From positions 1-64,000 of the forward strand of contig BDTD01000004.1 in the NCBI GenBank assembly GCA_002897635.1: a stretch of 64,000 bases of DNA, in the 5' to 3' direction. This document shows, in pieces, positions 48,635-50,770 of this stretch. Both the position numbers and the translations under genes were made by a program. The notes beneath the pieces were generated by a model, which worked only from the letters and a program-made list of their open reading frames with translations, searched no databases and was not told the DNA's origin. This stretch comes from a bacterium BMS3Abin11. GTDB lineage: Bacteria; Pseudomonadota; Gammaproteobacteria; BMS3Bbin11. Positions within the stretch are counted from its first letter, which is position 1. Each line of letters starts with the position of its first letter.

Positions 48635-48667
48635 AAAAAAAAAGCCGCTGTATAAATTACAGCAGCC
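48635..48667 (-). terminator. Terminator after iscU
   Basis: On the minus strand GGCTGCTGTAATTTATACAGC and GGC form a hairpin (arms GGCTGCTGTA and TACAGCGGC) followed by nine T. It lies 23 bases past the iscU stop. Confidence 0.88.
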
Positions 48668-48690
48668 TTTATTCATTCCTGTTATGCAGA

Positions 48691-49086
48691 TCAGGCAGCT
48701 ACAGTTTTATCTGACTTTTCCTTCAGATCGGCTATAGCGGCAGTAATCGCATCTTCTGCCAGCACTGAGCAATGGATTTTGACTGGAGGCAGAGCCAGTT
48801 CTTCAGCAATCGCTGTATTCCTGATCTCACCCGCTTCATCCAGAGTTTTCCCTTTCATCCATTCTGTTACCAATGAACTCGAGGCAATGGCTGAACCACA
48901 GCCATAGGTCTTGAATTTGGCATCTTCAATCACACCGTTATCATCAATCTGGATTTGTAAACGCATGACATCACCACATGCAGGCGCGCCGACCATTCCG
49001 GTACCAACGTTTGGAGCATCCTTATCCAGCGTCCCAACGTTTCTGGGATTTTCATAATGATCCAGTACTTTTTCACTATAGGCCAT
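48691..49086 (-). CDS. iscU: Iron-sulfur cluster scaffold protein IscU
   Basis: Scaffold for [2Fe-2S] assembly, 131 residues. The three cluster cysteines are Cys37 in GAPACGDVMRL, Cys63 in YGCGSAIASSS and Cys106 in KIHCSVLAEDA, with Asp39 and His105 also present. ALPPVKIHC contains the LPPVK motif recognised by HscA. Unusually no iscS, iscA, hscB, hscA or fdx is adjacent: iscR precedes and truD follows. SD GGAG precedes the start. The missing partners must be elsewhere or replaced by SUF. Confidence 0.95.
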   Translation of the reverse strand: MAYSEKVLDHYENPRNVGTLDKDAPNVGTGMVGAPACGDVMRLQIQIDDNGVIEDAKFKTYGCGSAIASSSLVTEWMKGKTLDEAGEIRNTAIAEELALPPVKIHCSVLAEDAITAAIADLKEKSDKTVAA

Positions 49087-49170
49087 GATTTACTCCGTAT
49101 ACTCTCACTCTGACGTTTATAAGGTTTCGCTTATTATAGCAGTAATATTCAATATCTTCTGTATAATTTC

Positions 49171-49659
49171 TTAGCTGGCTTCTCTTAAATCTGTATAGGC
49201 CCCTGGCAGCGCTGTCTGCAGTATGCCTGCATGTACGTCACCAATAACATCGCCACCATTCGGCCGCTCAATGCAATCTTTCAGTGAGATACTGTGCAGA
49301 AACTGATAGATACTTCGACTCAATGAACTCCACATCATCTGGCTCAAGTAGCGAACATTGTCGCCATATTGCGGGATGATGGTTTCGCGCATCGTATAAG
49401 TACGGTCATCAACGGATGTAACAATGTCCGCCACAGAGATATCTTCAGCGTCTAAAGCCAGCCTGTAACCACCACCTGGTCCGCGCACACCCTCAATAAG
49501 CTTACTCTCTCTTAAATTTGCAAAAAGCTGTTCGATATATGAGACAGAAATACCCTGATCTGTTGCGATTTGAGCCGCTGTCATTGCTCGTCCTTTGCCA
49601 TTTATAGCAAGAAACATCATCCCTGAAATAGCTATCTGACCTTTTGACGATAATCTCAT
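49171..49659 (-). CDS. Rrf2-family regulator, IscR homologue lacking cluster cysteines
   Basis: A 162-residue winged-helix regulator. The N-terminus MRLSSKGQIAISGMMFLAIN, recognition region ISVSYIEQLFANLRESKLIE and wing GVRGPGGGYRLALDAEDISV are those of IscR, including the Glu that blocks type-1 site binding in the apo form. Where IscR has C-x5-C-x5-C plus His, this protein reads TYTMRETIIPQYGDNVRYLS then QMMW, without any cysteine or the His. The only Cys is in SLKDCIE. It therefore should not bind a [2Fe-2S] cluster. It precedes iscU after 84 bases. Confidence 0.88.
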   Translation of the reverse strand: MRLSSKGQIAISGMMFLAINGKGRAMTAAQIATDQGISVSYIEQLFANLRESKLIEGVRGPGGGYRLALDAEDISVADIVTSVDDRTYTMRETIIPQYGDNVRYLSQMMWSSLSRSIYQFLHSISLKDCIERPNGGDVIGDVHAGILQTALPGAYTDLREAS

Positions 49660-49687
49660 ATTGACTCTCCTGATGCTAAGCGCATCT

Positions 49688-49739
49688 ATACCTGACTTTT
49701 TAGGTGGGTTATTTTATTATAAGAATCTACTACTGTCAA
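49688..49739 (-). promoter_or_regulatory. iscR promoter with type-1-like IscR box
   Basis: On the minus strand TTGACA (49739-49734) and TAAAAT (49716-49711) have a 17-base spacer. A 25-base imperfect dyad at 49688-49712 has half-sites ATAACCCACCT and ATACCTGACT, close to the IscR type-1 consensus ATASYYGACTR ... YAGTCRRSTAT, and overlaps the start point. This is the expected place for autoregulation. Confidence 0.6.
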
Positions 49740-49900: not shown

Positions 49901-50770
49901 ATGACAATTTCGCCTTATATTTTCGACCTGAAAAGCACTGAATTCGATGAGCTGGTACTGGCGAATTCAGACAAAGGCCCCGTTCTGGTAAATTTCTGGT
50001 CTGCCAAAGCCGCACCCTGCGTGATGCTGATGCCACGTCTGGTTAAGCTATGCAGTGAATACCAGGGACGATTTCTTCTCGGCATGGTAAATACCGATGA
50101 AGAAACGGATCTCGTAAAACGGCTGGGTATAAGCAGCCTGCCCTATGTGCGGATCTATAAGAAAGGTGAGGTGGTTGAGACTATTCGTGGGGCCGAGTCT
50201 GAAAAGAGTCTGAGACAGATCCTGGAAAAACATATACCACAGGTACTTAGTCCATTACATACCCGGGCAATAAAACAGGTTCAAACAGGCAAAACTGAAG
50301 AGGCTTTGCAGCTAATGGCTGAGGCAGTTGTTGAAACTCCGAACGACGTACGTATCCCAGCTGACATGCTGAGACTACTGATACGGGAAGGGCGTTTTGT
50401 TGAGGCTGAAAAACTTGCCTATTCCATTCCACAGTCTATCCAGAATGACCCGTCAATTAGCCTGCTGATGACCCATCTGGAAATATTTAATGCCAGCCCC
50501 GAAGACGACGAATCATCAATCGAAGCAATAAATATTTTATATAAAAAACTAAACGAAGAAGAAGTGTGTTTGAATGTCCACCTTGAACTGGCTTCCCGCT
50601 TGCTCAAGATTGATGATATAGAGCGCTCGCTGGAGCAACTATATAAAATAAGACAAAAAGATCGTGCGTTCAGAAACAATTTAGGTCACCGTGGGATGCT
50701 TGCCCTTTTCAGCCTGCCAGGAAATAACGGTGAGGTGTATGAGACTTACCGAAAGAAAATAATGACCTGA
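49901..50770 (+). CDS. CnoX/YbbN-like thioredoxin-TPR protein
   Basis: A 289-residue protein with an N-terminal thioredoxin fold (residues 1-110: VLVNFWSAKAAPCVMLMPRL, and the cis-Pro loop ISSLPYVRIYKKGE) and C-terminal TPR repeats. The CxxC motif is reduced to a single Cys40 with Ala at the first position (AAPC), as in E. coli CnoX, which has SQHC. So it is a holdase or redox-quality-control chaperone rather than a disulfide reductase. It diverges from iscR and holds a perfect palindrome upstream. Confidence 0.88.
   Translation: MTISPYIFDLKSTEFDELVLANSDKGPVLVNFWSAKAAPCVMLMPRLVKLCSEYQGRFLLGMVNTDEETDLVKRLGISSLPYVRIYKKGEVVETIRGAESEKSLRQILEKHIPQVLSPLHTRAIKQVQTGKTEEALQLMAEAVVETPNDVRIPADMLRLLIREGRFVEAEKLAYSIPQSIQNDPSISLLMTHLEIFNASPEDDESSIEAINILYKKLNEEEVCLNVHLELASRLLKIDDIERSLEQLYKIRQKDRAFRNNLGHRGMLALFSLPGNNGEVYETYRKKIMT

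Follow-up and report, generated by a model that had tools for sequence, protein, structure and literature searches.

An IscR paralogue without cluster ligands precedes the only iscU gene found in a gammaproteobacterial genome

Introduction

Iron-sulfur clusters are assembled on the scaffold protein IscU, whose gene usually accompanies those of IscS and the other ISC components, inside the IscR feedback loop. The IscR proteins of Escherichia coli and Pseudomonas (profile TIGR02010) have the Rrf2 fold and carry the residues Ser40, Glu43, Gln44 and Arg59; their gene precedes an isc gene, and an IscR-type box lies over its own promoter. Type-2 sites are preferred by apo-IscR, which is kept off type-1 sites by Glu43 (PMC3899308). 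The crystal structure of apo-IscR with hyA shows Glu43 in contact with the C at position -8, where the methyl group of a T would clash (PMC9338935). Apo-locked IscR, a laboratory product of the replacements C92A or C92A/C98A/C104A, has the reading head with Glu43 and no cluster; its repression of the type-1 isc promoter is lost, whereas type-2 sites still work (PMC4055776, PMC12594620).

The IscR of Rhodobacteraceae (Rhodobacter sphaeroides; Dinoroseobacter shibae, 7zpn) has lost ligands and has one C-terminal cysteine. In R. sphaeroides, the three classical cysteines are missing and the cluster needs the single C-terminal Cys142; its gene is the first of an isc-suf operon, and its DNA site is the Iron-Rhodo box (PMC4618611). 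CymR of Bacillus and Staphylococcus is a cluster-less Rrf2 regulator of cysteine metabolism that has CysK as its partner, and oxidation of a surface cysteine is described for the CymR of S. aureus (PMC9338935).

Here, an IscR-derived protein encoded in a 64-kb stretch of gammaproteobacterial DNA (the window) was compared with these systems. It is called IscR2, and the canonical IscR of the same genome is called IscR1. IscR2 shares with the IscR of E. coli and Pseudomonas the fold, the four DNA-reading residues, the position before an isc gene and a box over its own promoter, but it lacks the ligands, is followed only by iscU, has a hybrid box and coexists with a canonical IscR. As in the Rhodobacteraceae, ligands are lost and one C-terminal cysteine is left; however, IscR2 occurs in addition to a canonical IscR, and several similar proteins of other families lack even this cysteine. 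It resembles CymR in fold and in being a cluster-less Rrf2 protein, but falls far below the CymR profile cut-off. Whereas apo-locked IscR is engineered, the state of IscR2 is natural, its loop is rebuilt and conserved, and its operator-like box is modified. No description of a ligand-less IscR paired with iscU was found in the open-access papers searched.

Results

The iscR2 gene (49171-49659, minus strand) is an intact open reading frame encoding 162 amino acids. Its product exceeded the cut-offs of the Rrf2 superfamily profile TIGR00738 (101.3 bits against 73.3) and of PF02082 (101.5 against 30); it scored below those of the IscR equivalog profile TIGR02010 (115.5 against 207.55) and the CymR profile NF047409 (66.1 against 195). 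The alignment with E. coli IscR runs end to end. When IscR2 was aligned with this protein and with IscR1, Cys92, Cys98, Cys104 and His107 were all found to be replaced, as they are in all seven species of the genus sampled. Ser40, Glu43, Gln44 and Arg59 are retained in the seven orthologues, and the last three of these residues are invariant among 73 aligned relatives. The observation of the earlier note that the cluster ligands of this protein are gone while Glu43 remains was thus borne out. The segment that replaces the [2Fe-2S] ligand loop (codons 85-110; 49330-49407, minus strand) follows the pattern VDDRTY.MRET.IP.YGD.VR..SQ, with no cysteine or histidine at the ligand positions. The sole cysteine of IscR2, Cys129 (codon at 49273-49275, minus strand), is invariant in the genus and lies outside the classical cluster site. 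Because the ligands are replaced, the score stays below the IscR cut-off and the gene does not head an isc operon (iscS-iscU-iscA-hscBA-fdx) but is followed only by iscU, IscR2 is classified not as an IscR but as a cluster-less, IscR-derived paralogue of the Rrf2 family.

The closest known fold to the AlphaFold monomer model of IscR2 was that of apo-IscR (4hf0, Z 17.9; entries within Z 1 are treated as ties), and CymR was among the closest (Z 16.8). The former cluster loop has low confidence in this model (pLDDT below 50 for residues 86-100); therefore, the model cannot discriminate between the apo-like and the holo-like form.

Six further species of the genus have orthologues of IscR2, with 79-88% identity, so that the gene is kept in all seven species sampled. 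Those members of the genus that have names in the GTDB set belong to uncultured Gammaproteobacteria; two carry the label Arenicellales. By pairwise Nei-Gojobori counts, IscR2 has a pN/pS ratio of 0.158 overall. The ratio is 0.094 for the DNA-binding domain, 0.098 for the loop (residues 85-110) and 0.090 for the helix that comes next, and the tail reaches 0.44. Considering that the value for the loop is close to that for the DNA-binding domain, neither decay nor an assembly error accounts for the loop; the loop has been rebuilt, and its new sequence is conserved. A frameshift or assembly error hiding the cysteines, which the earlier note had named as an outcome that would overturn its reading, is also excluded by the presence of the same replaced loop in seven genomes.

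The iscU gene (48691-49086, minus strand) begins 84 bp downstream of iscR2, and no iscS adjoins. It was the only match to TIGR01999 in the genome (222.8 bits against a cut-off of 192.4), and its product keeps Cys37, Cys63, Cys106 and the LPPVK motif. Behind iscU, a terminator-like hairpin, identified by consensus match only (48640-48670, minus strand), closes the two-gene unit. The iscR2-iscU intergenic region contains, in all seven species, a -10-like TATAAT with a dyad ATAAG-N6-CTTAT (TATAATAAGCGAAACCTTATAAA; 49116-49138, minus strand), and the TATAAT is preceded by CTGC or by CTGT/TTGT. This element occurs once per genome in five genomes, except for one additional site with two mismatches in G001. 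Judging from its sequence, it is possibly a separate promoter of iscU or the operator of another regulator. It may transcribe iscU independently of the box upstream of iscR2, which would weaken strict control by that box.

The genome containing the window is 2.67 Mb long and 99.9% complete. On another of its contigs (C9), the gene order cysE-iscR-iscS-iscA-hscB-hscA-fdx was found, with a canonical IscR1 carrying the Cys-Cys-Cys-His ligands and with iscU absent. A search for a second iscR and for iscS, as the earlier note had suggested, thus located both. A canonical IscR with isc genes elsewhere is also one part of the second outcome that the note had named as overturning its reading, and this part has come true. 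Its statement that the locus keeps only iscR and iscU was correct insofar as no iscS stands beside them; however, the isc operon is intact elsewhere, and iscU is its missing part. The locus is therefore not the remnant of a degraded isc operon. All seven species of the genus have a canonical IscR1, a main operon without iscU and an iscU beside iscR2. Neither a second iscU nor a SUF back-up was found in the window genome; within the genus, four of the seven species were searched for sufB, and none was found. Because the only iscU is located in the iscR2-iscU unit and no sufB was found, the scaffold for the one Fe-S assembly system found here comes from that unit. In a genome of the sister genus (G007, 81% complete), iscU is likewise missing from the operon, where iscS runs directly into iscA; the IscR search gave no match in this genome.

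Several further observations were made in these genomes. In six species, a conserved type-1 IscR box lies about 46-59 bp before a TusE/DsrC-like gene (G000:C18:171571-171897; orthologues L243-L248 and L250), and the genomes of the genus encode several further DsrC/TusE-like paralogues. Together, these boxes and paralogues suggest an IscR-linked sulfur relay. A type-1-like box with three mismatches (G000:C6:88096-88120, L226) is located about 280 bp before a gene that we take to encode an Mrp/ApbC-like Fe-S carrier. In the window, the gene divergent from iscR2 (49901-50770, plus strand) encodes a thioredoxin fold with a C-terminal extension, in which SAKAAPC replaces WCGPC; its product is presumably CnoX/YbbN-like. 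A thioredoxin-fold gene adjoins iscR2 in G000 and G003, with a partial match in G006, and no match was seen in the iscR2-flanking stretch examined for the other four members of the genus.

Upstream of iscR2, the promoter TTGACA-17-TAAAAT (49711-49739, minus strand) agrees with the sigma-70 consensus at 11 of 12 positions and is conserved in the seven species. The box ATAACCCACCTAAAAAGTCAGGTAT (49688-49712, minus strand) overlaps its -10 element and the expected start site; its distance from the ATG is 52-57 bp in the seven species. In the window, the box matches the type-1 consensus at 20 of 25 positions; since 0.38 sites with at least 20 matches were expected in 64 kb and one was seen, the match alone is within chance. 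The box is credible because of its position on a strong promoter, its conservation in all seven species and the type-1 half-site that its right arm places downstream of the -10 element, where no promoter element explains it. Among the seven species, 14 of the 25 box columns are invariant, compared with 19 of 97 in the rest of the upstream region.

Across the genus, the iscR2 boxes match the full type-1 consensus at 19-22 of 25 positions, and the departures are systematic and located in the left arm. The iscR1 box is a perfect type-1 site (25/25) in six species, that of the window among them, and matches at 23 of 25 positions in one. The left arm reads ATAACCNA in the iscR2 box of all seven species, ATACTTGA in the iscR1 box and ATAGTTGA in the tusE box. 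Within the genus, position -8 is C in 13 half-sites and T in one for the iscR2 box, C in 5 and T in 9 for the iscR1 box, and T in all 12 for the tusE box; the right arm alone gives no separation at this position (6 C and 1 T for iscR2, 5 C and 2 T for iscR1). Conservation of the left arm, including its C at -8, may partly reflect promoter constraint because this arm overlaps the -10 element and the discriminator. The type-1-like box reported in the earlier note is therefore present over the promoter, but from its sequence it is better named a type-1/type-2 hybrid, with a type-1 core and C at -8. Such a box would presumably be read better than a plain type-1 site by a cluster-less IscR that carries Glu43.

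When five genomes were searched with the box pattern of the genus, the iscR2 site was the best match. Apart from it and one tusE-like gene in G001, little else was matched; a wide IscR2 regulon was therefore rejected, and the near absence of other matches suits a local autoregulator.

To place the locus in a wider context, the neighbourhoods of IscR and IscU were compared in 369 genomes spread over the class. Units of iscR and iscU without iscS (modules) were found in seven further families (f53, f80, f153, f128, f151, f141 and f180). The recovered main operon lacks iscU in f53, f153, f180 and two of the three f80 genomes, and iscU is present in both operon and module in G313, G247, G362 and G259. 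The two IscU copies are identical over the compared residues in G313 (L137/L192; the end of a contig truncates the copy in the module) and in G362 (L143/L190), which is attributed to recent duplication or gene conversion. The ligands of the module IscR are intact in G360, partial in G259 and G362 and absent in the rest. Where the main isc locus of genomes with a cluster-less module was recovered with its iscR, the IscR encoded there carries the ligands. Cys129 is missing in the cluster-less module IscRs of f80, f153 and f128, and the module IscR of G364 has no cysteine at all.

Among IscRs sampled without regard to adjacency, iscU is the neighbour of 8 of the 32 cluster-less paralogues but of none of the 24 ligand-bearing proteins outside isc operons, by a hand count evaluated with a Fisher test that ignores relatedness; among the eight, one has iscS in between and one has two cysteines left. 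Cluster-less IscR paralogues also occur away from iscU. One clade of Cys-free IscR paralogues (L111, L112, L119, L098 and L152) is mostly followed by a gene for a small, apparently secreted protein, which in L098 gives a weak DsrE match.

When the ligand loop was excluded from the alignment, a single origin of the cluster-less iscR-iscU modules was rejected (AU test, p = 6e-5), whereas one origin of all cluster-less paralogues was not (p = 0.24); the IscR trees, with few columns and long branches, are weak guides to the deeper order. Because this test does not place the module IscRs in a single clade, the pairing of a cluster-less IscR with iscU appears to have been gained or retained on more than one occasion. 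The promoters of modules with cluster-less IscRs mostly bear near-canonical type-1 boxes in the various families, with up to 24 of 25 matches (G210). In the module boxes of the other lineages, 13 of 14 half-sites have T at -8; the operator change is therefore not general, and in other families the canonical IscR may, to judge by these boxes, read those of the modules.

Discussion

The three alternatives offered by the earlier note, namely constitutive reading of the box, response to another signal and a box that serves another IscR, are the appropriate ones, and each is still a candidate here. We favour cluster-independent autorepression of iscR2-iscU by IscR2, and give this reading about an even chance of being right. 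Because IscR2 keeps the reading head of IscR, including Glu43, and the Cys3-His cluster cannot form, the protein would be permanently in an apo-like DNA-binding state, in which C at -8 would be acceptable and T would not. Its operator would be the type-1 core in which both arms carry C at -8. Since the box lies on the -10 element and the start site, we infer that IscR2 bound there would block transcription and so cap expression of iscR2-iscU. The output of IscU would then be set by a homeostatic, Fe-S-independent autorepressor in place of Fe-S feedback. IscS, IscA, HscBA and Fdx would stay under Fe-S feedback exerted by IscR1 at its perfect type-1 box, and tusE would probably also be adjusted to cluster status by IscR1.

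It is also conceivable, but rather unlikely, that holo-IscR1 reads the iscR2 box. The split-off iscU would then stay in the Fe-S regulon, and IscR2 would act elsewhere or as a modulator, that is, as a competitor or heterodimer partner of IscR1. The presence of canonical IscR1 in all seven species, the type-1 half-site in the right arm and the near-canonical boxes that cluster-less modules of other families mostly keep beside ligand-bearing main IscRs are consistent with such control. However, the iscR2 box differs consistently from those of iscR1 and tusE, which are the expected targets of IscR1, and no role would be left for an IscR2 reading head that is under strong purifying selection.

Switching of IscR2 by a partner or a thiol instead of a cluster appears improbable. 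IscU would be the natural partner, with free apo-IscU signalling an excess of scaffold. CymR, which is among the closest folds to the model, offers precedents both in its partner CysK and in its oxidation in S. aureus. The conserved pairing with iscU, seen in a quarter of the cluster-less paralogues and in none of the ligand-bearing IscRs outside operons, its apparently repeated gain or retention, the conservation of the replaced loop and the invariance of Cys129 in the genus would all fit; yet the pairing could reflect co-transcription only, and a thiol switch cannot be general, given that Cys129 is absent from several module IscRs and that one of them is Cys-free. By analogy with CymR, one may go further and suppose that Gammaproteobacteria repeatedly freed IscU from Fe-S feedback by means of a cluster-less IscR that senses IscU through its rebuilt loop, but this generalisation, too, would be something of a long shot. 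If it held, IscR2 would be a sensor of scaffold level comparable to the CymR-CysK pair, and the two IscR paralogues would measure cluster status and scaffold supply, respectively.

We consider it very unlikely that IscR2 still holds an Fe-S cluster, through Cys129 with non-cysteine ligands or between protomers, and senses cluster status with it. The single invariant cysteine in its C-terminal part recalls Cys142 of R. sphaeroides IscR, but the cluster-less module proteins of three families lack it, and no other invariant cysteine or histidine that might serve as a ligand is evident in the loop within the genus, His97 not being conserved. That IscR2 is a decaying duplicate without a regulatory role, with iscU expressed only from the intergenic promoter, would accord with the -10-like element in all seven species but is hardly credible, since both domains are under purifying selection (pN/pS about 0.09) and the operator-like box is conserved.

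In this organism, then, a single and presumably essential scaffold, in a genome in which no sufB was found, is encoded behind a regulator unable to use the classical cluster, which suggests separate control of scaffold supply and of the other Fe-S assembly components. The other families show intermediates, with module ligands intact, partial or absent and with iscU in both places or in the module only. As natural apo-IscR proteins, IscR2 and its counterparts would make it possible to study without engineered mutants how the choice between type-1 and type-2 sites depends on the cluster and Glu43, a question of long standing.
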